Positions 4,412-41,342 of a stretch of DNA of 64,000 bases are shown here, in pieces (position 1 is the first letter of the stretch; each line of letters opens with the position of its first letter). Origin of the DNA: an uncultured Bacteroidales bacterium (GTDB lineage Bacteria; Bacteroidota; Bacteroidia; Bacteroidales; P3). The translations under genes and the position numbers were made by a program. Location of the stretch: contig ONJQ01000014.1 in the NCBI GenBank assembly GCA_900318175.1, forward strand, positions 1 through 64,000, read 5' to 3'. The notes below the pieces were generated by a model. That model was not told where the DNA came from, ran no database searches, and saw only the letters and a list, made by a program, of their open reading frames with translations.

Positions 4412-6973
4412 ATGAAGAAAGTAATCCTGATTCTACTATTAAGCCTTGTCAATATAGCACAGGCCCAACAAGGCAAGATTAGCGGCAAAGTGTATGACTC
4501 CAAATCCGGTCTGCCCGTCGAGTACGCCACTGTTGCCGTACTCAAGGTGCAGGACTCGTCGCTGGTGACGGGCACCGTCACCGAGTCCAACGGCTCCTTC
4601 TCCGTCAATGCGGCATACGGAAAATACCTTTTGCGCATCTCCTTTATGGGCTACCAGACCTACTTCCACCCCCAAGCTGTAGTCCTGAGCGATGGTAAAA
4701 GCACAGCCAACGTGGGCAAAATCACTATCTCGCCCAGTGCGGTGATGATGGAAGAAGTGCAGGTGCGCGCGGAACGTACCATGGTGGAATACCAGTTGGA
4801 CAAGCGTGTGGTGAATGTTGACAAGAACTTGGTCTCCAATGGAGGCACGGCAACCGACGTACTGGAACAAGTGCCCAGCGTATCAGTGGACAACGATGGC
4901 ACCGTTTCGCTGCGAGGCTCGTCGAGCGTGAAAGTGCTGATTAACGGGCGCCCCTACGAGATGATGGGCAACGACCTCGAAACCCTCCTGGAGCAAATCC
5001 CCGCCAGCACGGTGGAGAGCGTGGAGGTCATCACCAATCCCTCAGCCAAGTATGACCCCGAGGGCATGAGCGGCATCATCAACATCAAGCTGAAAGAAAA
5101 AACCGCGGGAGCCTTGGGTCTGAACGGCGTTGTCAATCTTAACGCCGGCGGCCCGTTGCCCTTCATGGTGCCGGACCCCCTGCCCAGCGTCATCCCCACC
5201 ACAATGGGAAGCCTGAGCCTGAACTACACAACGGAAAAATATAATCTCTTCTTCACCTTAGACGGTGGCATGAGAAGCCGTGGAAGCCACGGCCATTCCA
5301 TGATCAAGCGACTGAGGGACAGCATAGCCATGTCCCACGACACGATTGACGAGTACGGTCTGCGCCGCAACTACATGGGTAGCCTGAAGGTGGGAGGCGA
5401 ATACTACTTCAACGACAAGAACAGCCTGCTCGTTTCCTACCAACTGAGGGGGGGCAAACGTATGCGGACAAGCCAAATATTCACCAACGACCTGATGTAC
5501 AACGGTCTCATGGACTATACCCAGATTGACACCAACAACAACCTCAACTTCAACCATGTGTTCAACCTCAGCTATGTCAAGAAGTTCGAGGAGAAGGACC
5601 GTGAATTGACAGCCGATGTCACCTTCTCAACAAGGCAGGTGAAAGGCAATGGACTGCAAGAGCAGACCTACCGCGACACCCTCGTCAACACCCCATATCT
5701 GACAGGCAATCCAATGTGGGACAACTACTACTTGCGCCGCACCAAGACAGAGAACCACCACCAGTCCCTAAACATGAAGATGAACTATGTGCACCCCTTC
5801 ACCGAAGTCTGGAAACTGGAAACAGGCTACGAAGGGCGGATGGACTGGCCCGACCAGGATGCCAAATACTACCGCACCGAGTACCACCCCACCACCCACC
5901 AACTCTACAATTACTTCGACTCAACCACCTCGACCCATTTCGACTACAACCAGCAAACCCACGGCCTTTACGCCACAGTGGGCGGCAAATTCACCGACAA
6001 ACTCTCCGCCCAGAGCGGTCTGCGCATAGAATACTCCTATCTCAACGGCGTGGACATCAACCACCCAACCGCAGAGCCTATACACAAAAGCTACTGGCAG
6101 CTCTACCCCACGCTGCACCTCTCCTACGAAATCAACCAGAGCAACAGCATGCAGCTGAGCTACAGCCGCCGCGTGCGCCGTCCGCACATGTGGGACCTCA
6201 ACCCCTATCTCGACGTGCGCGAAGGGCAGCAAATGTCATTCGGCAACCCCAACCTTGATCCGGAATTCACCAACGCTTTCGAGCTCTCCTACAACCTGGG
6301 GCTCAACAAATGGAACATCTACACCTGCGCCTACTACCGCCAAACCAACAATATGATGACCCGCTACGGCTTTGTGTGGGACTCCCTGTCGCACGACCAC
6401 TACAGCCCCTGGATGCCCTACAACCCGCAGTACGAAGGCTACTGGGCCAGCACCTGGCAGAACCTCGACAAAGGCTACAACTACGGCCTCGAATTCATCG
6501 TCGACTGGCAAGTGATGAAATGGTGGAAGCTGAACCTCAGCATCAACATGTACCACAGCACCATCCAAGGCACCGCACTGCTCAACAACAAAAGCCACTC
6601 CGCCTGGCAAGCCAGCGGCAAATTCACCTCGTTCATGAACCTTCCCGCCGACTGGACCATCCAGTTCTCCGGCCAGTACTTTGCCCCATGGCTCGACCTC
6701 CAGACCACCATGCTGCCCTCCTACTGGTTCGACCTTGCCGTGAAGAAAGACGTCTTGCAAAAGCGCGGCACCATCAACCTGCGTGTCGGCGATGTCTTCT
6801 CCACCGGCGGCTGGGGCCACACCACCTACACCAACCAACTGACCCGCGTGGTGAACTCGCGGCGCATCTCGCCCACCATCACCATCGGCTTCTCCTACAA
6901 AATCAACAACGGCCTCAAACAGCGCCAGCAAGTGGAGGAAGAGGATGACGGCGGAACAGAGAACATCTATTAA
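4412..6973 (+). CDS. TonB-dependent-receptor-like outer-membrane protein
   Basis: An 853-residue outer-membrane beta-barrel protein. A signal peptide (1 to about 19, ending AQA) is followed by a carboxypeptidase-regulatory-like domain (about 22-105, 'GKISGKVYDSKSGLPVEYA'), a plug domain (about 130-240, containing 'LEQVPSVSVDNDGTVSLRG') and a long barrel with many alternating aromatic residues. This matches the Bacteroidota family that resembles SusC/TonB receptors but usually lacks a SusD partner, and none is present here. Substrate unknown. Codon use returns to the GC-rich norm right after the R-M island. The last 29 bases overlap the next gene. Confidence 0.85.
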   Translation: MKKVILILLLSLVNIAQAQQGKISGKVYDSKSGLPVEYATVAVLKVQDSSLVTGTVTESNGSFSVNAAYGKYLLRISFMGYQTYFHPQAVVLSDGKSTANVGKITISPSAVMMEEVQVRAERTMVEYQLDKRVVNVDKNLVSNGGTATDVLEQVPSVSVDNDGTVSLRGSSSVKVLINGRPYEMMGNDLETLLEQIPASTVESVEVITNPSAKYDPEGMSGIINIKLKEKTAGALGLNGVVNLNAGGPLPFMVPDPLPSVIPTTMGSLSLNYTTEKYNLFFTLDGGMRSRGSHGHSMIKRLRDSIAMSHDTIDEYGLRRNYMGSLKVGGEYYFNDKNSLLVSYQLRGGKRMRTSQIFTNDLMYNGLMDYTQIDTNNNLNFNHVFNLSYVKKFEEKDRELTADVTFSTRQVKGNGLQEQTYRDTLVNTPYLTGNPMWDNYYLRRTKTENHHQSLNMKMNYVHPFTEVWKLETGYEGRMDWPDQDAKYYRTEYHPTTHQLYNYFDSTTSTHFDYNQQTHGLYATVGGKFTDKLSAQSGLRIEYSYLNGVDINHPTAEPIHKSYWQLYPTLHLSYEINQSNSMQLSYSRRVRRPHMWDLNPYLDVREGQQMSFGNPNLDPEFTNAFELSYNLGLNKWNIYTCAYYRQTNNMMTRYGFVWDSLSHDHYSPWMPYNPQYEGYWASTWQNLDKGYNYGLEFIVDWQVMKWWKLNLSINMYHSTIQGTALLNNKSHSAWQASGKFTSFMNLPADWTIQFSGQYFAPWLDLQTTMLPSYWFDLAVKKDVLQKRGTINLRVGDVFSTGGWGHTTYTNQLTRVVNSRRISPTITIGFSYKINNGLKQRQQVEEEDDGGTENIY

Positions 6974-7391
6974 AATACGCGAAATCGACGGCCACCGAGA
7001 GGTCTTTGACACCGTGCGGAACCGCTACGTCGCCCTCACCCCCGAGGAGTGGGTCCGCCAACACTTCATCCACTATCTGCACTCCGAGCTGCTCTACCCC
7101 TTCGAGCTGATGCAGGTGGAAGGCGCCATCACCCTCAACGGCATGACCCGCCGTTGCGACATTGTGGTCTACGACCAAGATGTGAAACCCTTCATCATTG
7201 TGGAGTGCAAGAAGGAGACTGTCCCCTTGACCCAAAAAGTGCTGGACCAAGCCTGCCGCTACAACCTCGTGCTGCAAGTGCCTTACCTATGCCTCACCAA
7301 TGGCGCGCAGCAAATCTGTTGCCAAGTCGATTTTGCCGAAAAAAGGCTCATCTCCATCCCAGAACTGCCAAAATATCATAAAAGATGTTAA
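6945..7391 (+). CDS. HsdR N-terminal-like PD-(D/E)XK domain protein
   Basis: A 148-residue stand-alone protein of the type I restriction HsdR N-terminal-like family common in Bacteroidota. The nuclease core is readable: RRCDIVVYD supplies Asp72, IIVECKK supplies Glu87 and Lys89, and 'LDQACRYN' follows as the usual Gln helix. No helicase domain or HsdM/HsdS gene is present, so it is not a working type I restriction system. In relatives this gene often sits beside DNA-metabolism genes; here it overlaps the end of the outer-membrane receptor gene by 29 bases, in another frame. Cellular role unknown. Confidence 0.75.
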   Translation: MTAEQRTSIKIREIDGHREVFDTVRNRYVALTPEEWVRQHFIHYLHSELLYPFELMQVEGAITLNGMTRRCDIVVYDQDVKPFIIVECKKETVPLTQKVLDQACRYNLVLQVPYLCLTNGAQQICCQVDFAEKRLISIPELPKYHKRC

Positions 7392-7461
7392 AAGTTCGGA
7401 CTGAGGGGGTATCCAAATCGGGCCTTGGCACTCTTATATACATAACACTGCAAAATTCGAT

Positions 7462-7944
7462 ATGCGCGAAAGTGACAAACAGATGCTGGCAGACCATTAT
7501 CTGGATTTCTACCAAATGGCATACACCTTGTTGCACAACAAGGCCGATGTCGAAGATGCAGTGCACGACGCCCTGGTGGAGACCATGTCAAACCCGCTGG
7601 TCACTAACCCCTACCAGTACTGCTCGAAGGTGGTGAGAAACAACTGCCGCAAACTACTACGCAAAGAGGGCTACATGCTCGTAGAACAACTGCCGGACAT
7701 TCCAGCCCCCGAGGACCATCTGGACGAAGAGCGCTTGCGCATGCTCTGGGACTACAAGAATACGCTGCCTGACAGGATACGCGAAATCTTCGACCTCTAC
7801 TACGAGCAAGGATACTCCCGACACAAGATAGCCGAAGTGACCAACACCCCGATGCCCACCCTGAAAAAACTATTCCGCAAAGGGCACGAACGGCTGAAGA
7901 AAATGATGAAAGAGCACGAAAAACAACATAAAGAAACCCGTTGA
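7462..7944 (+). CDS. RNA polymerase sigma factor, sigma-70 (ECF-like)
   Basis: A 160-residue sigma factor with only regions 2 and 4. Region 2 is around residues 14-45 ('FYQMAYTLLHNKADVEDAV') and region 4 is about 105-150, where 'YSRHKIAEVTNTPMPTLKK' forms the helix-turn-helix and 'FRKGHERLKKMM' the end. It should direct RNA polymerase to a small regulon. The next two genes, an anti-sigma-like membrane protein and a short exported protein, probably form one operon with it. The inducing signal is not visible. Confidence 0.85.
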   Translation: MRESDKQMLADHYLDFYQMAYTLLHNKADVEDAVHDALVETMSNPLVTNPYQYCSKVVRNNCRKLLRKEGYMLVEQLPDIPAPEDHLDEERLRMLWDYKNTLPDRIREIFDLYYEQGYSRHKIAEVTNTPMPTLKKLFRKGHERLKKMMKEHEKQHKETR

Positions 7945-8015
7945 GGCGAGCAACAATGACGGCAACCCCGAACCATTGCCCATCGCCCATAAATCAACAA
8001 TAAAAACAATACGAC

Positions 8016-8561
8016 ATGAAAAACATAGATAACCTCCTTCAACGCTACAGCGAAGGAACCATCACCCCGGAGGAGCAAGACGAGCTGAACCGTCTTACCC
8101 GTCGCGACGAGGTTTTCCACGCCGCCGAGGCCGAGGCCCACACCATCCGTCGCCGTCGCCGCGCCACGGCGTCAACTGTGGCTGCAGTGCTTATTGTGGC
8201 TGGGGTTCTCTTTACCATCCTGCCCCAAAACCGCTTGTCCACTGGCGATGCACCCCTCATAGCACAGGCCGAAACAGGCTCCCAGGCCAGCCCGCAACAT
8301 CTCTCCCAAACCCTGCCACCCGATGCAGCCACCAATGCACAACCCTCAGCCCTGCCCCAACCCGCGCAGACCGTTGCCACACAGGCCGAACCCGCCCATG
8401 CCGCCCTGGCTTCCACCTCCCATCCCAAGCCCTCCAAGGCCATAGAAACGCTGGACAACGCGATAGAGCCCCTGCTGGATCCTGACCCCATTGTGGCATG
8501 CAACACGCAGTGCTCGCCCGATTCAGTGATTAACGACATCTGGAACTTCCTCCGCGCCTAA
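8016..8561 (+). CDS. Putative anti-sigma factor, single membrane span
   Basis: A 181-residue protein. The first 30 residues ('LLQRYSEGTITPEEQDEL') resemble the short N-terminal sigma-binding segment of Bacteroidota anti-sigma proteins. An Arg cluster (45-49) precedes one hydrophobic span (about 51-69), so the N-terminus should be cytoplasmic. The rest is a low-complexity Pro/Ala/Gln/Thr stretch outside the membrane without a recognised domain. Location directly behind the sigma factor supports the assignment; sequence similarity alone would not. No peptidase or carbohydrate-binding motif is seen. Confidence 0.65.
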   Translation: MKNIDNLLQRYSEGTITPEEQDELNRLTRRDEVFHAAEAEAHTIRRRRRATASTVAAVLIVAGVLFTILPQNRLSTGDAPLIAQAETGSQASPQHLSQTLPPDAATNAQPSALPQPAQTVATQAEPAHAALASTSHPKPSKAIETLDNAIEPLLDPDPIVACNTQCSPDSVINDIWNFLRA

Positions 8562-29083: not shown

Positions 29084-32000
29084 ATGAAGAGAAGTACCAT
29101 TGTCAAGACCTTGCTGTTGCTGCTTATGGCAGCATTCCAACATAATCTCTCTGCTGCCGACTTCAATGCCGTTTGCAGCAGCGGACAACGCATTTACTAC
29201 AATATCCTTTCCGACTCCACTGTAGCCATCACCTACCCCCGTCTCTCCAACAACAACTACTACTATGGCTACACCAAGCCCTCTGGCAACATGACCATTC
29301 CCGCCACCGTTGTCCATGGTTCCAACACCTATCATGTCATCTCCATCGGAGCCAATGCCTTCCACTCCTGCACCAACCTCACCTCCGTCTCCATTCCCTC
29401 ATCCGTCACCGTCATCAGCGACGGAGCCTTCAACCACTGCAGCGGCCTCACCTCTATCACCATTCCCTCAACGGTACTCACCATTGGCGTTGGAGCCTTT
29501 CAAGGTTGCAGCGGCCTCGTCACCGCCCAGTTGGGTTCCAACATTGGCATCATTGGCAGCGTAGCCTTCGAGGGCTGCACCTCCCTCCGTGCGGTCAACA
29601 TCCCCAACTCCGTCACCATTCTTGGCAACTGGGCTTTCAGCAACTGCTCCTCGCTCGACACACTCACCATCGGAACCTCCCTCAGCCAAATCTCCTACAC
29701 TGTTTTCGCCGGCTGCAACAACGTCCGCCACATCTATTACAATGCCATCAACGCTGTTTGCAGCTATATGACAAGTGGTGGCTACCAATCCTCGCTCCCC
29801 GTCAGTTCACTCCACTCTCTCGTTATTGGCGACAGCGTCCAAACCCTCCACTCCTATTCTTTCACCAACGCCACCAGCCTCGACTCCGTCAGCATTGGCC
29901 TCAGTCTTGCCACCATTGACACCTGTGCCTTTATCGGCTGCAGCAATGTCCATTATCTCTGCTATAATGCTGTCAACTGCTCCGATGCCTCTTTCTGCTC
30001 AACGCAAGGCAGCACCCCTTCCCATGCCTTCCGACCCTTTACCCAACTCTCCTCACTGACTCTTGGCAGCAGCGTGCTCCGCATCCCTTCCTACGCCTTT
30101 TATGGCATGACAGGCATCACCTCCCTGGCCCTTCCGCAATCCCTGCAGACCATTGGAAACTATAGTTTTGCTCAATGCAACAATATTAACACCCTACTTC
30201 TGCTGCCCAACACCCTCACCTCCATTGGCAGCTTCGCCTTCCAGGGCTGCTCCCACCTCAATTCCACCATTCAGTTTCCTGCCAGTCTGACTACTATCGG
30301 CATCGGTGCCTTCCGCGACTGCGACAGCATCTTCTTCCTCAACACCGGCACCTCCCCTGCGGCCATCCCTGCCGAAGCCTTCTATGGCTGCGACCGCTTG
30401 TTCCAAATCACCATCGGCAGCAACACGCCTTCCATCGGCGATTCCGCTTTCTCCAACTGCTCGCGCCTTACCTCTGCCACTCTTGGCGCTGCCCTCGCCG
30501 CCATTGGCAACAACGCCTTCCGCGGCTGCTACCGTTTGGTCACACCCCTTTTCCCTCACTCCCTCACCTCCATCGGCCTCAACGCCTTCTATGGCTGTTC
30601 CCTGTTGGGTGAGCAACTGACCTTCCCCGCCTCCCTCTCCTACATAGGCAACGGAGCCTTCTCCAACACTGCCTCAATCGCCACCATCACCATGCTGGGC
30701 AGCACTCCTCCCGCCATCTCCTCCGGCACCTTCGGTTCCGCCTCCTCTTCCACCCATGTTTTTGTGCCCTGTGGTGCCCTCCTTGCCTACTTCATGGCCG
30801 ACTATTGGGAAAACTTCACCAACCTCACCGAGACCTCGCCCTACAGCCTTACGCTCTATGTCAACAACCCCATCATGGGCAGTGCATCCGTCACCCAGCA
30901 ACCCGGCTGCACCAGTTCGGTTGCCATCATTCAGGCCGTAGCCAACACCGACTATCACTTCCTTCGCTGGAACGATGGCAACACCGCCAATCCACGCACA
31001 CTTAACATCAATTCCGACACCACATTCACGGCCTTTTTCGTCTCCGACTACTCCTACATTACCGTCACCTGCAACGACTCCACCCGAGGCTCCGTCTCCG
31101 GCACCGGCCTTTACAGCTACAATGCCACAGCCACCCTCACCGCCACTCCTCTTGCTGGTTTCCACTTCCAGCGTTGGAGCGATGGCAACACCGACAATCC
31201 GCGCTACATCACCGCCACACAGGACTCCCTCTTCACCGCCATCTTCCTCTCCAACAACTCCACCATCACCGTCCTGAACAACAATCCCACCATGGGTACC
31301 GTCAGCGGCGGTGGCAACTATTATTATCAGAACCAAGCCGTCATTTCAGCAACTCCCTTTGCGGGCCATCATTTCACCTTCTGGAACGACGGCGTGACCA
31401 CCAATCCCCGCACCATTGTTGTGTCGCAGGATTCCACCTTCACCGCCAACTTTGCCGTCAACCTCTACACCGTCACCGCCACCAGCAACAACAATACCAT
31501 GGGTTCCGTCACCGGCGGTGGCAGCTATAGTTACCTCGCCACTGTCGAGCTTACCGCCACAGCCTTCTTCGGCCACCATTTCGTTCAATGGAGCGACGGC
31601 GTAACCACCAATCCCCGCTCATTCCAAGTCACGGCGGACACTGCCTTCACGGCCATCTTTACCCCCAACACCTACACAATCCAACTACTCTCCAACGACA
31701 CCACTATGGGCACCGTCTACGGCGGTGGCACCTATAACTATGCCGCCACTGCAAACCTCTCCGCCTCGGCTGTCTACGGCTGCCATTTCGTCCAGTGGAG
31801 CGACGGCAGCACCGACAACCCCCGTACCCTCACCGTTACGGGCAACACAACACTCACAGCCATGTTTGCTGTCAACACTTACTCTCTCACCGTGCTCAGC
31901 AACAATAACACCATGGGCAACGTGACCGGCTCAGGCACCTACACCCACAACACCCCTGTCAACATCACCGCCCAGGCCAACTACGGCTACCACTTTGTCA

Positions 32001-33556
32001 GCTGGAACGACGGCGACACCAATAACCCGCGTCTCATCACCATGACCCACGACGCCACCTACACTGCCCTCTTTGCACTCAACTCATATACCGTCACCGC
32101 CATCAGTGCCAATATTGCCTATGGTACCGTCAGCGGCAGCGGCACCTACAACTATAACTCACCCGCCCTCATCACTGCCACACCCTTCTATGGCTATCAC
32201 TTTGTGCAATGGAACGATGGCAGCACCGACAACCCACGCTCCATTGTCGTCACCGAGGACATCGGCTTCACCGCCATCTTTGCTGTCAACAACTACATCG
32301 TCACCACCAACAGCAACTCGCCCGCCCGGGGCTCCGTCACCGGCGGCGGCACCTACAGCTACCAGTCCGTAGCCACCCTCACAGCCCTACCCGCTGACCA
32401 TCACCACTTCGTACAGTGGGACGATGCCGACACCAACAATCCCCGCACCCTTACCGTCATTTCCGACACCTCCTTCACCGCCCATTTCGTCATCGACTCC
32501 TATTACGTTGCAGTCACTACCCTCGACACCCTTCGCGGTCATGTCGAAGGGGCTGGAACCATTGCCTACGGCAACACTGCCAACCTCATTGCCGTGCCCA
32601 ACTATGGCTACTACTTCTCCTCGTGGTCCGATGGCGTAACTCAGAACCCACGTCCTGTCATCATCACCTCCGACACCTCCTTCTCCGCCATTTTCCTCCC
32701 CAACATCTATCAGATTTCCGTCCTCCCGGCTGACACCCTCCAAGGCACCACCATCGGCTCCGGCATCTACGAATACGGTACGCAAATCACCATACAAGCC
32801 ATCGCCGCTCCACACAACTACTTCACCAGTTGGAACGACGGCATCACTACCAATCCCCGTGTCATCAACGTCACACGCGACAGCAACATCATCGCTCTCT
32901 TCCAAGCCGATCCCTCCTACATCATCACCGTCAACAGCAACGATATCACCATGGGCTCCGTCACAGGCTCCGGCACCTATCAGGCCGGAGAGGAAATCAC
33001 CATCACCGCCACCCCCACGCAACACCACATCTTCAAATATTGGAGTGACGGCAATAGCGACAATCCCCGCACGGTCCGAGTGCTCAACAACGCCACCTAC
33101 ACGGCCATCTTTGCCCTGCAAACCTTCACCATCCACGCCACACCCAACAACACCGAGATGGGAGCCGTCTATGGTGCGGGCACCTACAACTATGGCGAGC
33201 ATGCCACCCTGCTGGCACGTCCCTTCCCGGGCTTTTCTTTCCGTGAATGGAGCGACGGCAACACCAACGCGGAACGCTCCATCCTTGTGGACCGCAACAT
33301 CACCCTCCAAGCCATCTTCTACAACACCGTCGGCATAGACCAGGCCGAGAGTGAGGGCATCACAGTCCTGACCAATGGACAGGACATCACCATCAACGGG
33401 GCCGAAGGCCGCCACGTCAGCCTGTACGACATTATGGGCCGCCGCATTGCCGGCCAGTCCGCCGCCACCAATACCCTCAACCTCCGAGTCCCGGCCACAG
33501 GCATCTATATGCTCCACGTCGACGGCTCCGCCGCTCACAAGATAGTGGTTCGCTAA
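29084..33556 (+). CDS. BspA-type LRR / InlB-repeat T9SS adhesin
   Basis: A 1490-residue secreted surface protein. After a signal peptide (1 to about 24) come BspA-type leucine-rich repeats (about 60-560; units such as 'LTSVSIPSSVTVISDGAF'). Twelve InlB B-type (Listeria-Bacteroides) repeats of 66-69 residues follow (about 586-1415; core 'G.Y.Y...A.L.A.P..GYHFV.W.DG.T.NPR'). The last 75 residues are a type A T9SS sorting domain ('LYDIMGRRIAG', 'GIYMLHV', ending KIVVR), so it should be exported by T9SS and anchored. LRR proteins of this kind bind host or bacterial surfaces in other species; the ligand is unknown here. It ends the operon at a strong terminator. Confidence 0.9.
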   Translation: MKRSTIVKTLLLLLMAAFQHNLSAADFNAVCSSGQRIYYNILSDSTVAITYPRLSNNNYYYGYTKPSGNMTIPATVVHGSNTYHVISIGANAFHSCTNLTSVSIPSSVTVISDGAFNHCSGLTSITIPSTVLTIGVGAFQGCSGLVTAQLGSNIGIIGSVAFEGCTSLRAVNIPNSVTILGNWAFSNCSSLDTLTIGTSLSQISYTVFAGCNNVRHIYYNAINAVCSYMTSGGYQSSLPVSSLHSLVIGDSVQTLHSYSFTNATSLDSVSIGLSLATIDTCAFIGCSNVHYLCYNAVNCSDASFCSTQGSTPSHAFRPFTQLSSLTLGSSVLRIPSYAFYGMTGITSLALPQSLQTIGNYSFAQCNNINTLLLLPNTLTSIGSFAFQGCSHLNSTIQFPASLTTIGIGAFRDCDSIFFLNTGTSPAAIPAEAFYGCDRLFQITIGSNTPSIGDSAFSNCSRLTSATLGAALAAIGNNAFRGCYRLVTPLFPHSLTSIGLNAFYGCSLLGEQLTFPASLSYIGNGAFSNTASIATITMLGSTPPAISSGTFGSASSSTHVFVPCGALLAYFMADYWENFTNLTETSPYSLTLYVNNPIMGSASVTQQPGCTSSVAIIQAVANTDYHFLRWNDGNTANPRTLNINSDTTFTAFFVSDYSYITVTCNDSTRGSVSGTGLYSYNATATLTATPLAGFHFQRWSDGNTDNPRYITATQDSLFTAIFLSNNSTITVLNNNPTMGTVSGGGNYYYQNQAVISATPFAGHHFTFWNDGVTTNPRTIVVSQDSTFTANFAVNLYTVTATSNNNTMGSVTGGGSYSYLATVELTATAFFGHHFVQWSDGVTTNPRSFQVTADTAFTAIFTPNTYTIQLLSNDTTMGTVYGGGTYNYAATANLSASAVYGCHFVQWSDGSTDNPRTLTVTGNTTLTAMFAVNTYSLTVLSNNNTMGNVTGSGTYTHNTPVNITAQANYGYHFVSWNDGDTNNPRLITMTHDATYTALFALNSYTVTAISANIAYGTVSGSGTYNYNSPALITATPFYGYHFVQWNDGSTDNPRSIVVTEDIGFTAIFAVNNYIVTTNSNSPARGSVTGGGTYSYQSVATLTALPADHHHFVQWDDADTNNPRTLTVISDTSFTAHFVIDSYYVAVTTLDTLRGHVEGAGTIAYGNTANLIAVPNYGYYFSSWSDGVTQNPRPVIITSDTSFSAIFLPNIYQISVLPADTLQGTTIGSGIYEYGTQITIQAIAAPHNYFTSWNDGITTNPRVINVTRDSNIIALFQADPSYIITVNSNDITMGSVTGSGTYQAGEEITITATPTQHHIFKYWSDGNSDNPRTVRVLNNATYTAIFALQTFTIHATPNNTEMGAVYGAGTYNYGEHATLLARPFPGFSFREWSDGNTNAERSILVDRNITLQAIFYNTVGIDQAESEGITVLTNGQDITINGAEGRHVSLYDIMGRRIAGQSAATNTLNLRVPATGIYMLHVDGSAAHKIVVR
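30841..33330 (+). repeat. Twelve tandem InlB-type repeats, about 200 bases each
   Basis: Tandem coding repeats of about 198-210 bases inside the BspA-type gene. They are clearly diverged from one another at DNA level but share blocks such as TGGAACGACGGC and ACCAATCCCCGC. Copy number could vary by recombination. Confidence 0.85.
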
Positions 33557-35010: not shown

Positions 35011-35038
35011 ACAGATGTGCCGACGTGGCAAAAAAATT

Positions 35039-35069
35039 TTTGCCATGTCGGAAATAATTTGTATTTTTG
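35039..35069 (+). promoter_or_regulatory. Bacteroidota promoter of cobalamin-riboswitch unit
   Basis: Textbook arrangement: TTTG at 35039-35042, 19-base spacer, TATTTTTG at 35062-35069. Transcription would begin just before the riboswitch aptamer. Confidence 0.8.
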
Positions 35070-35072
35070 CAC

Positions 35073-35257
35073 ACGATTTGGTCGCCGAAGGGGTCTACCC
35101 CTGAGGCGTGAAAAGGGAATCAGGTGAGAGTCCTGAACAGTCCCGCTGCTGTGAGCTCATCAGAACCGCAGCCCCCAACACAAAGCCACTGTGCGGCGCC
35201 ATAGCCGCATGGGAAGGCAGGGCGGCGGAGAGCGAGTCAGAAGACCTGCCAAGTCGT
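35073..35257 (+). promoter_or_regulatory. Cobalamin (B12) riboswitch
   Basis: An adenosyl/hydroxo-cobalamin riboswitch aptamer. The conserved core is readable in order: AAAAGGGAA (about 35110), GGTGAGAGTCCTGAACAG, CCCGCTGCTGTGA, GCCACTGTGC, GGGAAGGC and the B12 box AGCGAGTCAGAAGACCTGCC (35231-35250). The closing stem pairs 35073-35080 with 35250-35257. Downstream, a small hairpin CAGCGT/ACGCTG (35299-35318) may serve as expression platform. In this class, B12 binding normally shuts off expression. It controls the T9SS repeat protein starting at 35381, 124 bases further on, and no other gene shares the transcript before the terminator at 38716. Confidence 0.92.
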
Positions 35258-35380
35258 TGATTTAAGGCTTTCGAGGAAAGAGCTGAAAATTGATAGCACA
35301 GCGTGTGCGTGTACGCTGTTTATCCCTTTTCACTTGTTTCATGTAGAAAGCTATTTTGTAGAGAACAACAAAATAGTTAT

Positions 35381-38300
35381 ATGATGATTAAAAAAATTAC
35401 TACATTTGCAATAGGTCTGCTTCTCACGGCAGGCCTGTGGGCTCAGTCGGGCAACAACGAGAGGTTCGGTCATGCTGCCAAAGGCGGAGCTAAATCCATC
35501 ACTTTTTCTGCTTCAGACATCGAGTTCTGGACGGGTACCGGAACAAACCAAGCCATCTACGTCCTTGCATGGGACGACGACCCATACAACAACGACACCG
35601 CATTGGCTTGGGGCGTGCGCTGGAACGGCAGCGCCACAGCAACGTCGCTGCTGGATACCATTGTGGCATACGACTCGCGCTTCAGCTACACACTGAGCGG
35701 ATCGCTGATGACGGATATGTCATTCAACGACGGCACAATAAACCCTGGCTCAAGCATGAATGGCTGGTGCTATTACCACAACGGCAGCTGGGGAATGTAT
35801 GCATGGCCAAACCAGCCTATGAGCAACGGCGACATGATTGAGATGAGCAGCAGCTGCATGTTTACCATGACTTCCGCTACAGCGGTCACCGACCCCTCGT
35901 CAACGGGCACAACCGACACGGTGGATGCCACGATTGACACTTCGGACATTGTCTTCTGGGTTGGAAACGGCACAAACAAAGCCGTGTTGATTGTGAACTG
36001 GGGTAACCCGGACACCGCTTTTGCTTGGGGATTCCGTTTCAACGGCACCGCTACCGCCCAGACCATGGTGGACAGTATTGCCGCCGCCGACCCCCGTTTC
36101 TGGACGGTGGGGACTCCTTCGTATAATGGAGACATCCACTACATTCTTAACAATGGCGATACACTGGGATTGATTCCTGGTTCGTCCACAACAGAAGGAT
36201 ACAATTTCTGGTGGGCCAACCTCAACGGCGTCAGCGCTGGAAATGGTTCGGGAGAGTCGCTGCACAACGGCGATGTGTTCAAGTATGGCGATTATAGTGT
36301 GGGCATTGGCTGGGACCCCCTGGGGACATATTTCTTGGAGCGTGCCTGGCTGAAGACTCCCACTCCCGCCCCTCTTCCAACTCCCACTGATACTACTACT
36401 ATTGAAGATGCCACTATTGACACCGCCGACATTCTATATTGGGTAGGTGCAGGCAGCAACAAGCTGACCTTTGTGGTGAACTGGGCTGATACCGCCTTGG
36501 CCTGGGGCTACCGCTTCAACACCGAGAGCGTTTCTATGTCCACGGTAATCAACGACCTGGCTGCCGCCGACCCCCGTTTGACCTTTGGCGCCACGGGAAT
36601 GCTTGACGACATCTGGTTTGTGGAAGGCAACGACACCCTGAAAATCACTCCCGGCAACTATTGGGAGCACTCCTTGAATGGCATCATGTCCGCCGGAATG
36701 GGCACAACGATGCATGACGGCGATTTCAGCCGCTGGGCCGACCCTGCAGACGGTGTGGCAGTGGACAGCTTCTACTATGACGGTTGGGGCTGGTTCTACA
36801 CTTATGTCTATCCCAGAACCATCTATCCAGTCTCCATACCCTCTAACGACGGGCCCATTGAGGATGCCACCATCAACGCTGACGACTTGGTGTACTGGGT
36901 GGGCAATGGCAGCAACGAGCTGACCTTTGTTGTCAACTGGGCGGATACCGCTCTGGCTTGGGGCTATCGCTTCAACTCTGACAGTGTGCTGCTGAGTACC
37001 GTAATGAACCACATTACCGCTGTCGACCCCCGTTTCAGCTATACAGGTACTGGCATGGTGAGCGACATCCACTTTATTGCAAACGGCGACACGCTGGGCA
37101 TTACTCCCGGCAACTTTTGGAGCCATTATCTGAACGGCACTACGTCGGCCGGTATGATGCAATGGATGCACAATGGCGACTTCAGCCGCTGGGCCGACCC
37201 CGCCTCCGGCGTGCTGGTGGACAGCGTATACCACGAAGACTGGGGCGGCTGGTGGGAACGCATCTATGCCTATCCCCAGACAATCTATCCCGTAAGCGAA
37301 CCTGCCCCGGTTGACGCTACCATTACTGCCGACGAGATTGAATACTGGATTGGCGAGGGCGAGAACGAGGCCATCTTCGTAGTCAACTGGGTCGACACCG
37401 CTCTGGCTTGGGGCTACCGCTTTGCCAATGACAGCGTGACGCTGGCAACCATGATGGACGACATCGTCGCTGCCGACAGCCGCTTCAGCTACAGCGGTGA
37501 GGGCATGGTGAGCGACATCAACTTTATCGAGAATGGCGATACCCTCGGCATCACCCCCGGCAACTGGTGGGAACACTCCATCAACGGCATCTCCTCTATG
37601 GGCATGGGCCAGTGGTTCCACAATGGCGACATGAGCCGTTGGGCCGACCCTGCAGCCGGAATCGCTGTAGACAGCTTCTACTATGAAGGCTGGGGTTGGA
37701 TTTACACTTACGTCTATCCTCAACATATCTACCCTGTGAGCAATCCCGAACCTGAGGAAGGTCCCTTCTGTGGTATTGTAGGCACTGAAGGCTGCACGGC
37801 CATTGCCTTGGACGATGTCCGCATCAAAGGCTGGGCTACGGGCTGCACAGTGGTGCGCGGTTCGAGCAATTTGAGCGACCCCAACGCCGCTGATGTCTCC
37901 TACGGTGAAGAGTCGGCCGGCGTAGGCCCTGCCTCGACAAGCACCCTCGAAGCCGTAAGCTTGGGCGACGGCGGAATGGCAACCCTCACTTTCGGCACCC
38001 CCATTGCCAATGGCGACGGTTTCGACTTTGCCGTGTTTGAGAACTCATTCGACGACTACTTCTTAGAACTGGCCGTGGTAGAGGTGAGTTCGGACGGCGA
38101 GCATTTTGTCCGCTTCCCCGCCACTTCGCTCACACAGACACGCACCCAGATTGGCGACATAGGCCGTGTGGATGCCACCTTCATCAACAACCTGGCTGGT
38201 AAATACCGCGTGGGTTACGGTACTCCGTTCGATCTGGAAGAGCTCCGCGACAGCACCAACATTGACATCAACAATATCACCCATGTGCGCCTCATTGATG

Positions 38301-38680
38301 TGGTGGGCAGCATCGACCCCCAATACGGCACCTACGACGCCTTCGGCCACATCATCAACGACCCCTTCCCCACAATCTCCCGCAGCGCCGGTTTCGACTT
38401 GGAGGGTGTCTGCGTCCTGAACCAGCAATTGGGCATCAAAGACGCTGAGGCCACCACGCTGAACCTCTTCCCCAACCCTGCACGTAACCTTGTCAGCATC
38501 ACCATGAAGGCTGAAGCCGCCGGCACCGTGGCCATCTACGACATGACGGGTCGCCAGGTGCTGACGCTCCCCGTGCAGGCTGGCAACTCCACAATCCGAA
38601 TCAACACCGCTGACATGCCCAACGGCGTGTACATGGTGAGCTTCGGAAACCATGTGGAGAAACTGGTGGTACGCCACTAA
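35381..38680 (+). CDS. B12-riboswitch-controlled five-repeat T9SS surface protein
   Basis: A 1099-residue secreted protein. A signal peptide (about 1-24, ending LWAQ) is followed by five imperfect repeats of about 135-160 residues starting near 38, 183, 344, 494 and 645. Each opens 'D(I/L)..W.G.G.N...(F/V)V.NW.DTA.AWG.RF' and later has 'L.I.PG..W' and 'HNGDFSRWADPA'. A different, Cys-containing C-terminal module (about 795-1015) and a type A T9SS sorting domain ('NLFPNPARN', 'IYDMTGRQVL', 'NGVYMVSFG') close the protein. Start: ATG at 35381, because the longer frame lies in the riboswitch leader. The riboswitch strongly suggests a role in corrinoid capture at the cell surface; no biochemical function is seen directly. 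I do not recognise a named domain in the repeats. Confidence 0.85.
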   Translation: MMIKKITTFAIGLLLTAGLWAQSGNNERFGHAAKGGAKSITFSASDIEFWTGTGTNQAIYVLAWDDDPYNNDTALAWGVRWNGSATATSLLDTIVAYDSRFSYTLSGSLMTDMSFNDGTINPGSSMNGWCYYHNGSWGMYAWPNQPMSNGDMIEMSSSCMFTMTSATAVTDPSSTGTTDTVDATIDTSDIVFWVGNGTNKAVLIVNWGNPDTAFAWGFRFNGTATAQTMVDSIAAADPRFWTVGTPSYNGDIHYILNNGDTLGLIPGSSTTEGYNFWWANLNGVSAGNGSGESLHNGDVFKYGDYSVGIGWDPLGTYFLERAWLKTPTPAPLPTPTDTTTIEDATIDTADILYWVGAGSNKLTFVVNWADTALAWGYRFNTESVSMSTVINDLAAADPRLTFGATGMLDDIWFVEGNDTLKITPGNYWEHSLNGIMSAGMGTTMHDGDFSRWADPADGVAVDSFYYDGWGWFYTYVYPRTIYPVSIPSNDGPIEDATINADDLVYWVGNGSNELTFVVNWADTALAWGYRFNSDSVLLSTVMNHITAVDPRFSYTGTGMVSDIHFIANGDTLGITPGNFWSHYLNGTTSAGMMQWMHNGDFSRWADPASGVLVDSVYHEDWGGWWERIYAYPQTIYPVSEPAPVDATITADEIEYWIGEGENEAIFVVNWVDTALAWGYRFANDSVTLATMMDDIVAADSRFSYSGEGMVSDINFIENGDTLGITPGNWWEHSINGISSMGMGQWFHNGDMSRWADPAAGIAVDSFYYEGWGWIYTYVYPQHIYPVSNPEPEEGPFCGIVGTEGCTAIALDDVRIKGWATGCTVVRGSSNLSDPNAADVSYGEESAGVGPASTSTLEAVSLGDGGMATLTFGTPIANGDGFDFAVFENSFDDYFLELAVVEVSSDGEHFVRFPATSLTQTRTQIGDIGRVDATFINNLAGKYRVGYGTPFDLEELRDSTNIDINNITHVRLIDVVGSIDPQYGTYDAFGHIINDPFPTISRSAGFDLEGVCVLNQQLGIKDAEATTLNLFPNPARNLVSITMKAEAAGTVAIYDMTGRQVLTLPVQAGNSTIRINTADMPNGVYMVSFGNHVEKLVVRH

Positions 38681-38715
38681 TTAACAAGAAGTCTCATTAT
38701 CAACCATTAATGCCG

Positions 38716-38749
38716 AGCGGTCGCTCGTGAGAGCGACCGCTTATTTTTT
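38716..38749 (+). terminator. Rho-independent terminator of riboswitch unit
   Basis: Perfect 11-base stem (AGCGGTCGCTC / GAGCGACCGCT), GTGA tetraloop, then TATTTTTTA. It isolates the T9SS protein gene from nrdD. Confidence 0.92.
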
Positions 38750-38791: not shown

Positions 38792-40882
38792 ATGGAAACA
38801 GTCCCTTTCAGCATAACCAAGCGCGACGGCCAGCAAGTGCGTTTCTCCTTAGACAAGATTATGAATGCCATCATCAAGGCCTTCCAGTCGGTCGAGGAGC
38901 CCGTGGACCTCTCCACCCTCAACAAGATAATCACCCATCTCAACATCTATGACGGGATTACCGTTGAGGACATCCAGAACCAGGTGGAGGTGGCCCTGAT
39001 GAAAGAGGGACACTACCGTGTAGCCAAGTCGTTCATGCTCTACCGCCAGAAGCACACCGAAGACCGTGAGACGATGGAAAAGCTGAACTTCCTTGTGGAA
39101 TACTGCAAGGCCGAGAATGCCGCCACTGGCAGCAAATACGATGCCAATGCCAACGTAGAGCACAAGAACATAGCCACCCTGATAGGTGAGTTGCCCAAAG
39201 CCAGTTTCATCCGCCTGAACCGCCGCCTGCTTACTGACCGCATCAAGAAACTCTATGGCAAAGAGCTGGCCACCCAGTATCTGGACCTGCTGACCCACCA
39301 CTTCATCTACAAAAACGACGAGACCTCCCTGGCCAACTACTGCGCCAGTATCACCATGTACCCCTGGCTCATCGGCGGCACAGCATCCATCGGCGGCAAT
39401 TCCAAAGCCCCCACCAACCTGAAAAGTTTCTGCGGCGGCTTTGTCAACATGGTCTTTATGGTCTCAAGCATGCTCAGCGGTGCCTGCGCCACTCCTGAGT
39501 TCCTGATGTACCTGAACTACTTCCTCGGTCTGGAGTACGGCAAGACCTACTGGCAGGAGCCCGACCGTGTGGTAGACCTTTCGGTCAAGCAGCGCACCAT
39601 CGACAAGATGATAACCGACTGCTTCGAGCAGATAGTCTACACGCTCAACCAACCCACCGGTGCCCGCAACTACCAAGCCGTGTTCTGGAACATCTCCTAC
39701 TACGACCGCTACTATTTCGAGAGCCTGTTCGGCGACTTCGTCTTCCCCGATGGGAGCCATCCCGACTGGGACAGCCTCTCCTGGCTCCAGAAGCGCTTTA
39801 TGAAGTGGTTCAACAAGGAACGCACCCGCTCCCTGCTCACCTTCCCCGTGGAGACCATGGCCCTGCTCACCGAAAACGGCGAGTGCCGCGACAAGGAGTG
39901 GGCCGACTTCACTGCCGAGATGTACGCCGAAGGCCACTCTTTCTTCACCTACCTGAGCGACAATGCCGACTCGCTCTCCTCCTGCTGCCGGTTGCGCAAC
40001 GAGATTACCGACAACGAATTTAGCTACACCCTCGGCGCAGGTGGCGTCTCCACCGGTTCCAAAAGCGTGCTCACCGTCAACCTCAACCGCTGCATCCAGT
40101 ATGCCGTGGGCCACAACATCCCCTACATCAAATACCTCTCCGACATCGTCGACCTCTGCCACAAAGTGCAGATTGCCTACAACGAGAACCTCAAAGAGCT
40201 GCAAAGCCACGGCATGCTGCCACTCTTCGATGCCGGCTACATCAACATCAACCGCCAATACCTCACCATCGGTGTCAACGGCCTCGTTGAAGGGGCGGAA
40301 TTCCTCGGCATCCCCATCAACGACAACGACCAATACCGCGACTATGTCCAGTCTGTCCTCGGCGTGGTAGAGAAATACAACAAGCAGTACCGCACCGACG
40401 AACTTATGTTCAACTGCGAGATGATCCCTGCCGAGAACGTAGGCGTCAAGCACGCCAAGTGGGACCGCGAGGACGGCTACTTTGTACCCCGCGACTGCTA
40501 CAACAGCTACTTCTACATCGTCGAGGACGACTCCCTCACCATCCTCGACAAATTCAAGCTCCACGGTGCCCCCTACATCCAGCACCTCACCGGTGGCAGC
40601 GCCCTGCACCTCAATCTGGACGAGCATCTGTCCAAAGAGCAGTACCGCCAGTTGCTGCGCGTGGCGGCTACAGAGGGGTGCAACTATTTCACCTTCAACA
40701 TACCCAACACCATCTGCAACGACTGTGGCCATATCGACAAACGCTACTTGAAAGAGTGTCCCGTGTGCCACAGCAAGAACATCGACTACATGACCCGCAT
40801 CATCGGCTACCTGAAACGCATCGGCAACTTCTCCCAAGGGCGGCAGGAAGAAGCCCGCCGCCGCTACTACCACAATGCTTAA
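38792..40882 (+). CDS. nrdD: Anaerobic ribonucleoside-triphosphate reductase
   Basis: A 696-residue class III ribonucleotide reductase, which makes dNTP precursors without oxygen using a glycyl radical. The N-terminal ATP-cone (about 1-95, 'ITKRDGQQVRFSLDKI') is an allosteric dATP/ATP sensor. The C-terminus has a zinc Cys quartet (CNDC...CPVC) and the radical-glycine loop 'TRIIGYLKRI' (Gly672). It overlaps the nrdG start by eight bases. Its presence shows an organism able to grow anaerobically. Confidence 0.96.
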   Translation: METVPFSITKRDGQQVRFSLDKIMNAIIKAFQSVEEPVDLSTLNKIITHLNIYDGITVEDIQNQVEVALMKEGHYRVAKSFMLYRQKHTEDRETMEKLNFLVEYCKAENAATGSKYDANANVEHKNIATLIGELPKASFIRLNRRLLTDRIKKLYGKELATQYLDLLTHHFIYKNDETSLANYCASITMYPWLIGGTASIGGNSKAPTNLKSFCGGFVNMVFMVSSMLSGACATPEFLMYLNYFLGLEYGKTYWQEPDRVVDLSVKQRTIDKMITDCFEQIVYTLNQPTGARNYQAVFWNISYYDRYYFESLFGDFVFPDGSHPDWDSLSWLQKRFMKWFNKERTRSLLTFPVETMALLTENGECRDKEWADFTAEMYAEGHSFFTYLSDNADSLSSCCRLRNEITDNEFSYTLGAGGVSTGSKSVLTVNLNRCIQYAVGHNIPYIKYLSDIVDLCHKVQIAYNENLKELQSHGMLPLFDAGYININRQYLTIGVNGLVEGAEFLGIPINDNDQYRDYVQSVLGVVEKYNKQYRTDELMFNCEMIPAENVGVKHAKWDREDGYFVPRDCYNSYFYIVEDDSLTILDKFKLHGAPYIQHLTGGSALHLNLDEHLSKEQYRQLLRVAATEGCNYFTFNIPNTICNDCGHIDKRYLKECPVCHSKNIDYMTRIIGYLKRIGNFSQGRQEEARRRYYHNA

Positions 40883-41342
40883 ATACCTCAATACCGACAT
40901 TGTCTTCCAGGAAGTCCCTGACGAGACCTCCCTGGCCATCAATATCGCCGGCTGCCCCTGCCGCTGCCCAGGCTGCCACAGCCCGCAACTCTGGGGCGAC
41001 ACCGGCCTCCCGCTCGACACCCAAGCCATCGACACCATGATGGCCGCCCAAGGCCAAAGCATCACCTGCGTCTGCTTCATGGGCGGCGATGCCGCGCCAC
41101 ACCAAGTGGCGACTCTCGCCGCATACGTCCACCTCCACTACCCCCGTCACAAAGTGGCATGGTACAGCGGCCGTCAGTATCTCCCCCACAACCTCGACAA
41201 ACAACAATTCGACTACATCAAACTGGGTCCCTACATCGCCCACCTCGGCCCCCTCAAATCATCCCACAGCAACCAGCACATGCTCAAACGTCAACCCGAC
41301 GGCACCTTCGCCGACATCACTTCCCGTTTCCGCACCCGTTGA
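40875..41342 (+). CDS. nrdG: Anaerobic ribonucleotide reductase activating protein
   Basis: A 155-residue radical SAM enzyme that installs the glycyl radical on NrdD. The 4Fe-4S Cys motif is C-x3-C-x2-C at residues 27, 31 and 34 (GCPCRCPGCHS), followed by 'CVCFMGGDA', the SAM-binding Gly-rich loop. Short length is typical. It overlaps nrdD by eight bases, so translation should be coupled. Confidence 0.95.
   Translation: MLKYLNTDIVFQEVPDETSLAINIAGCPCRCPGCHSPQLWGDTGLPLDTQAIDTMMAAQGQSITCVCFMGGDAAPHQVATLAAYVHLHYPRHKVAWYSGRQYLPHNLDKQQFDYIKLGPYIAHLGPLKSSHSNQHMLKRQPDGTFADITSRFRTR

Follow-up and report, generated by a model that had tools for sequence, protein, structure and literature searches.

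A riboswitch-controlled, probable B12-capture protein of an uncultured Bacteroidales bacterium with tandem repeats resembling the beta domain of animal cobalamin carriers

The window analyzed here, the first 64,000 nucleotides of contig ONJQ01000014.1 of an uncultured Bacteroidales bacterium (GenBank assembly GCA_900318175.1), contains a cobalamin (vitamin B12) riboswitch that precedes a single gene for a 1,099-residue surface protein. Taken as a whole, we consider this protein quite probably a multisite surface corrinoid trap that is exported by the type IX secretion system (T9SS) and made when B12 is short; we are less sure of the part of this reading in which the repeats of the protein themselves bind corrinoid. 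The original prediction, made from the sequence alone, had proposed a multivalent corrinoid-capturing surface protein, and it is supported by genome context and by fold, through transcobalamin-beta-like repeats and a BtuH-like module from which we infer binding. The protein is probably a surface B12-capture protein whose carrier domain is apparently unreported in a Bacteroidota setting and whose tandem, T9SS-borne architecture is unusual.

Genomic context is the strongest evidence for a B12 role. A scan for relatives of the C-terminal module found 83 loci, of which 80 named loci (given here as L and a number) were kept; 57 of the 80 hold repeats, and the closest named relatives came from uncultured rumen Bacteroidales. 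When riboswitches were counted with a covariance model, R1, that had been trained on part of the 80 loci, the switch lay up to 600 bp upstream at 42 loci and farther upstream at 21, was absent at 7, and at 10 the contig started too close to the gene; the corresponding counts for the 57 repeat loci were 39, 10, 0, and 8. A cobalamin riboswitch is thus found upstream at 49 of the 57 repeat loci, with the other 8 scored as cut by a contig end. One of these 8 (L082) was misfiled through a fragment open reading frame, and its main gene is preceded by a riboswitch at a distance of 166 bp; two of the 39 (L066 and L085) rest on aptamers truncated at a contig end. By position, a btuB- or btuG-like gene lies between the switch and the family gene in 15 of the 21 loci with a switch farther upstream. 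Rfam independently placed RF00174 in all 11 of the repeat loci that had not been used for training and in 5 of 13 module-only loci; it placed none in the 7 that model R1 called riboswitch-negative. The module-only proteins with RF00174 upstream (L114, L115, L116, L118, and L121) belong to Opitutales and other Verrucomicrobiota, with the switch adjacent in L118 and about 3 to 3.5 kb away in the other four. Over all 80 loci, a BtuB- or BtuG-like gene is present in the fetched stretch at 24 and absent from it at 56. The window unit was predicted to stand alone and does hold a single gene, but this arrangement is not peculiar to the locus, as the 39 repeat loci with a riboswitch within 600 bp attest.

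A further search took PF14478 (DUF4430), the Pfam family of transcobalamin-like domains, as its starting point instead of the window family. PF14478 was present in 7 of 149 sampled Bacteroidales genomes, in all 7 in B12 loci. The DUF4430 gene adjoins CobU and DBI_PRT (CobT family) in L122. In L124 it has a DUF5074 (BtuG-type) protein on one side and CobU on the other, and in L126 it is flanked by a DUF5074 protein and a cobalamin adenosyltransferase. In L125 a riboswitch and a cobalamin adenosyltransferase precede it and a CobQ-type gene follows. L127/L129 and L128 are built like the riboswitch unit of the window, and the L178 locus reads riboswitch-btuB-btuG-BtuH-like-DUF5074-DUF4430. Rfam found the switch in four of the seven DUF4430 loci (L125, L127, L128, and L178) and did not find it in L122, L124, or L126. 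The secreted proteins of L122, L124, L125, and L126, which share the clade by PF14478 and are single domains of about 130 to 150 residues weakly matched by the repeat profile, are possibly single-domain corrinoid carriers.

In a sample of 296 genomes from the phylum, model A1 gave 6 positives, including the window's genome, and the repeat gene was in a B12 context in all 6. Repeat genes lie in BtuB/BtuG operons in L179, L180, and L182, beside a riboswitch and a BtuH-like neighbor in L183, and beside a BtuH-like neighbor only, at a contig end, in L184. L181 is a stand-alone unit with its own riboswitch, and its 373-residue product has two repeats and no module. In the L180 protein (5782-8022), the repeat shares one chain with a DUF5074 propeller and a T9SS tail, according to a Pfam scan made for L180 alone among the proteins of L180, L182, L183, and L184, which are 746 to 759 residues long with the repeat near the N terminus.

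The window protein has the predicted anatomy of a 1,099-residue secreted protein with five similar domains and a distinct C-terminal module (residues 794 to 1017). The repeats are 144 to 161 residues long, and their identity to repeat R5 is 68% for R4, 62% for R3, 41% for R2, and 36% for R1. The structural model of R5 matches the beta domain of transcobalamin and intrinsic factor: rows 1 to 15 of the structure comparison are all carriers or DUF4430 proteins, and the next row lies 2.6 Z units lower. The model shows a beta-grasp fold with a beta-hairpin insert after the helix, the feature that defines the transcobalamin-like clade of the SLBB superfamily (PMC1796856; this and other papers are cited for excerpts of their text). 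The fold therefore favors a transcobalamin-beta-like assignment of the repeats. Against PF14478, repeat R1 scored 14.2 bits, below the cutoff of 23.8, and R2 to R5 had no match, so that no window repeat reached the curated score; a genome search of the host gave no PF14478 match. Across the family, 28 of 111 repeats match PF14478 at an E value of ≤1 (best, 2.6e-7). The L129 protein, a close member of the repeat family, forms a sequence bridge from the repeats to PF14478, with 47.6 bits to that family and 8e-47 to the repeat profile, and L128 scored 24.3 bits in the genome search and 20.2 bits as a whole protein.

Although the beta domain of transcobalamin, intrinsic factor, and haptocorrin shares its fold with the window repeats, the aligned parts are only 8 to 12% identical. 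The window protein also differs from these animal carriers in having a tandem array of five domains with extra C-terminal strands and, from the Pfam scan and the repeats-plus-module layout, no alpha/alpha toroid that we could find. Crystals show cobalamin bound to the transcobalamin beta domain on its own, and splitting the domains lowers affinity (PMC5599065). The number of repeats detected across the family ranges from 1 to 5. In two giant relatives with a T9SS tail, L082 and L085 (2,082 to 2,238 residues), fn3 domains separate the first repeat from the others; a third, L066 (2,235 residues), is known by its length and repeats only.

For the C-terminal module, the best fold match of the model was BtuH2 (7biz), and the model has the fold of the BtuH B12-binding domain, which favors a BtuH-like assignment. 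A phmmer search with the whole protein gave no BtuH match, and the module profile reached 8blw, the H-domain of BtuG1/BtuGH, at an E value of 0.1 only. Within the 48 columns of the module-BtuH profile alignment, Asn888 is the counterpart of Asn399 of BtuH2 and is kept in 57 of 57 modules, and Phe890 is the counterpart of Phe401 and is kept in 49 of 57. The BtuH2 residues Gln333, His476, Tyr510, Trp511, and Trp577 fall outside this span, and the Gln333 motif (PAPGQ) is not evident in the window subfamily. Proteins of 377 to 1,000 residues in L174, L175, and L176 carry the short BtuH-type motif, in fetched stretches that contain neither B12 genes nor a switch, and by eye the L176 protein also has a PAPGQF segment as in BtuH. 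The module was also compared with the LIC_13355 family lipoprotein (NCBIfam NF033170): 53 of 57 modules match it at an E value of ≤1 over about 50 residues (best, 1.2e-6), but its cutoff of 120 bits is far above the 21.9 bits of the window module.

Comparison with BtuG, BtuH, and DUF4465, as proposed with the original prediction, pointed to a resemblance to BtuH; a Pfam scan of the 1,099-residue protein found no BtuG-type DUF5074 propeller (PF16819), no DUF4465 (PF14717), and no PKD domain. Unlike BtuH2, which has PKD domains and a lipid anchor, the window protein has a T9SS tail. BtuJ (DUF4465) is a B12-regulated surface capture protein, as the window protein probably is, but is built on another domain, and DUF4465 proteins with T9SS tails adjoin module genes in L185 and L188. 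BtuG acts in the same pathway, and its propeller is the one fused to the repeat in L180.

The predicted delivery by the T9SS agrees with a sorting tail that scored 45 bits for Por_Secre_tail (cutoff, 27) and 39.9 bits for TIGR04183, with a signal peptide recognized by eye, and with a host gene for the translocon protein SprA (TIGR04189, 2,355 bits), the one T9SS part searched. A single pairwise comparison, made with a relative of 82% identity, gave ratios of nonsynonymous to synonymous substitution rates of 0.10 to 0.18 in the five repeats and the module and 0.35 in the tail. The host assembly (2.9 Mb in 70 contigs, 92% complete; the window is contig 20) has one other cobalamin riboswitch, located ahead of the genes for a TonB receptor and a DUF5074 lipoprotein. 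The prediction of a unit with no transporter therefore holds at the locus but not for the genome, where a BtuB-BtuG-type pair stands behind the second switch. We found two methylmalonyl-CoA mutase matches and, in the 92% complete assembly, neither CbiD (the corrin-ring gene searched) nor a B12 methionine synthase activation domain. Because mutase matches are present and CbiD was not found, the host looks like a B12 user unable to make the corrin ring, with the proviso that the assembly may lack 8% of the genome.

Beyond binding, we infer its stoichiometry, the hand-over of ligand, and the direction of regulation. At low cellular B12, the riboswitch would permit expression of the trap gene, and B12 bound to the aptamer would stop it, as judged from the riboswitch family and from published Bacteroides switches. 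Those switches shut down their operons in the presence of B12 (PMC12751083, PMC6143338), and the trap is therefore expected under B12 starvation. The signal peptide would take the protein across the inner membrane and the T9SS across the outer membrane, after which it would either stay on the cell surface or be released. Each of the five beta-grasp repeats may offer a corrinoid site through its post-helix beta-hairpin, as in animal carriers, and the BtuH-like module a sixth through Asn888 and Phe890; for a monomeric ligand, these sites would give capacity, not avidity. Captured corrinoid may then pass to the separately encoded BtuB-BtuG importer, which would fit the picture drawn for B. theta, in which surface lipoproteins of the BtuH type are believed to load BtuBG but not to associate with it stably (PMC10404256). 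In a bolder version, neighboring repeats would stand in for the missing alpha domain. The protein could then be a bead-string B12 carrier that Bacteroidota evolved from the domain also used by animals in intrinsic factor and transcobalamin, in which the corrinoid is clamped between neighboring repeats or against the BtuH-like module, exported by the T9SS as a high-capacity trap; we put this forward as a tentative possibility.

Alternatively, corrinoid may be bound by the BtuH-like module only, with the repeats as spacers or display arms like the PKD domains of BtuH. This reading overlaps with the next one, so that their chances are not exclusive, and it has a small but appreciable likelihood. 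BtuH2 is built in this way, from PKD domains plus a single C-terminal binding domain (PMC8941943), and variable repeat number and the fn3 domains inserted in two giant versions speak for it as well. However, the nearest folds of the repeats are B12 carriers rather than Ig-like spacers, the stand-alone riboswitch unit L181 encodes repeats but no module, and small DUF4430 proteins adjoin CobU, CobT-type, cobalamin adenosyltransferase, and CobQ-type genes.

Protein binding is common among beta-grasp domains, and many CBM32/F5-8 type C glycan binders are among the fold neighbors of the module. The repeats might accordingly dock the trap by recognizing a glycan or one of several protein partners (BtuG, BtuB, or a host B12 carrier) rather than hold B12. 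We regard this as improbable, since the B12 riboswitch linkage persists in loci without a BtuB/BtuG-like gene in the fetched stretch and the carrier matches are well above those to other beta-grasp proteins. Still less probable is a B12-regulated adhesin, vesicle factor, or enzyme that has no corrinoid site and is linked to the riboswitch only through a B12-dependent growth state. BtuL, which lies in a B12 uptake operon yet shows no binding (PMC12751083), offers a precedent, as does the BtuH-type motif in the proteins of L174 to L176, outside any B12 context; against it, two separate domain families in one protein resemble B12 binders, and the Asn/Phe pair of BtuH is kept. A chance beta-grasp or jelly-roll match is very unlikely: Foldseek E values are weak and the beta-grasp is widespread, but carriers and DUF4430 proteins fill the top of the structure comparison, and L129 supplies the bridge in sequence.

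The regulatory unit consists, as predicted, of a promoter, a complete cobalamin aptamer, one gene, and a strong terminator (Table 1). The aptamer, at 35062-35267 (+), is the sole Rfam gathering match in the window; its score of 103.3 bits exceeds the gathering score (31.5), and the match covers the full length of the RF00174 model (1-189). Covariance model R1, whose training set includes the window, scored it at 190.1 bits (35065-35260). The aptamer start coincides with the -7 element of the promoter, which is of the Bacteroidetes -33/-7 type. The window contains 3 occurrences of the pattern TTTGN{18,21}TANNTTTG, where 0.72 would be expected, and 3 of 100 shuffles reach 3. Taken alone, this is evidence of modest weight, and the promoter call gains support because it is placed where the aptamer requires a promoter. 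The -33 TTTG element sits within an inverted repeat that is likely the terminator of the upstream patatin-like gene. Predicted hairpins span the leader from aptamer to start codon and are candidates for the switch element; the CTTTCGAGGAAAGAG block is likely an expression-platform hairpin, and the strong hairpin that follows is not kept in the wider leader alignment. The intrinsic terminator has a predicted energy of -24.4 kcal/mol (z, -5.8). A program-made list of open reading frames puts the gene start further upstream, at GTG 35303.

Table 1. Features of the riboswitch unit, in window coordinates
Feature	Position	Strand	Remarks
Inverted repeat CCGACGTGGC...GCCATGTCGG, 32 bp	35020-35051		From sequence
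Promoter TTTG-N19-TATTTTTG	35039-35069	+	Bacteroidetes -33/-7 type
Post-aptamer CTTTCGAGGAAAGAG block	35268-35282	+	Nearly invariant across 16 aligned leaders
Strong predicted hairpin between aptamer and start codon	35292-35324	+	Leader fold z, -3.8
Gene for 1,099-residue T9SS surface protein	35381-38680	+	ATG at 35381; stop ends at 38680
Signal peptide, residues 1-22	35381-35446	+	By eye
Repeat R1, residues 38-181	35492-35923	+	Transcobalamin-beta-like
Repeat R2, residues 182-342	35924-36406	+	
Repeat R3, residues 343-494	36407-36862	+	
Repeat R4, residues 495-644	36863-37312	+	
Repeat R5, residues 645-793	37313-37759	+	AlphaFold2 (AF2) model; predicted local distance difference test (pLDDT), 95.9
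BtuH-like C-terminal module, residues 794-1017	37760-38431	+	AF2 pLDDT, 94.0
Asn888-Ser889-Phe890	38042-38050	+	Counterpart of the B12 contacts Asn399/Phe401 of BtuH2
T9SS type A sorting tail, residues 1029-1094	38465-38662	+	
Intrinsic terminator, then ATTTTTT	38715-38742	+	12-bp stem plus T run

Directly downstream of the unit lie nrdD and nrdG (window 38792-41342), named by eye as an anaerobic class III ribonucleotide reductase. nrdD is downstream in 13 of the 80 loci (L042 to L054), 8 of which have a patatin-like gene upstream. L177, from an unrelated genome, shows a matching order of riboswitch, DUF4465 protein, and nrdD-nrdG (by eye). Further upstream, at 29084-33556, is a 1,490-residue secreted protein with BspA-like leucine-rich repeats and then a long array of about 70-residue repeats, also by eye.

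Surface B12 binders help decide which organisms win B12 in gut communities, and those that we found published for Bacteroidota are BtuG, BtuH, BtuJ (DUF4465), and BtuK1 (PMC13398666, PMC12751083, PMC8941943). In 2007, PMC1796856 predicted B12 binding for transcobalamin-like domains, located them in Gram-positive bacteria, planctomycetes, and some euryarchaea, and proposed a bacterial origin of the animal carriers; the two mentions of Bacteroidetes in its excerpts are both on other families. Among the matches listed from the open-access literature, we found no report of transcobalamin-like domains in Bacteroidota B12 loci, and the excerpts of PMC4350170, PMC6143338, and PMC9723704 do not place the domain there. 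If binding is confirmed, the repeats would add to the Bacteroidota surface set a further domain family, with a fold shared with human B12 carriers, and an architecture in which one chain would carry as many as six candidate sites and reach the surface through the T9SS rather than as a lipoprotein. Confirmed binding would also suggest a likely function for rumen Bacteroidales repeat proteins that Pfam left unnamed here, make the repeats a candidate scaffold for B12 capture, and provide a defined test of the bacterial-origin proposal of PMC1796856. Should the bead-string reading be true, Bacteroidota B12 loci would be a bacterial setting that ties the carrier domain to B12 regulation, and one in which the descent of animal carriers from a bacterial B12-scavenging domain may be tested.

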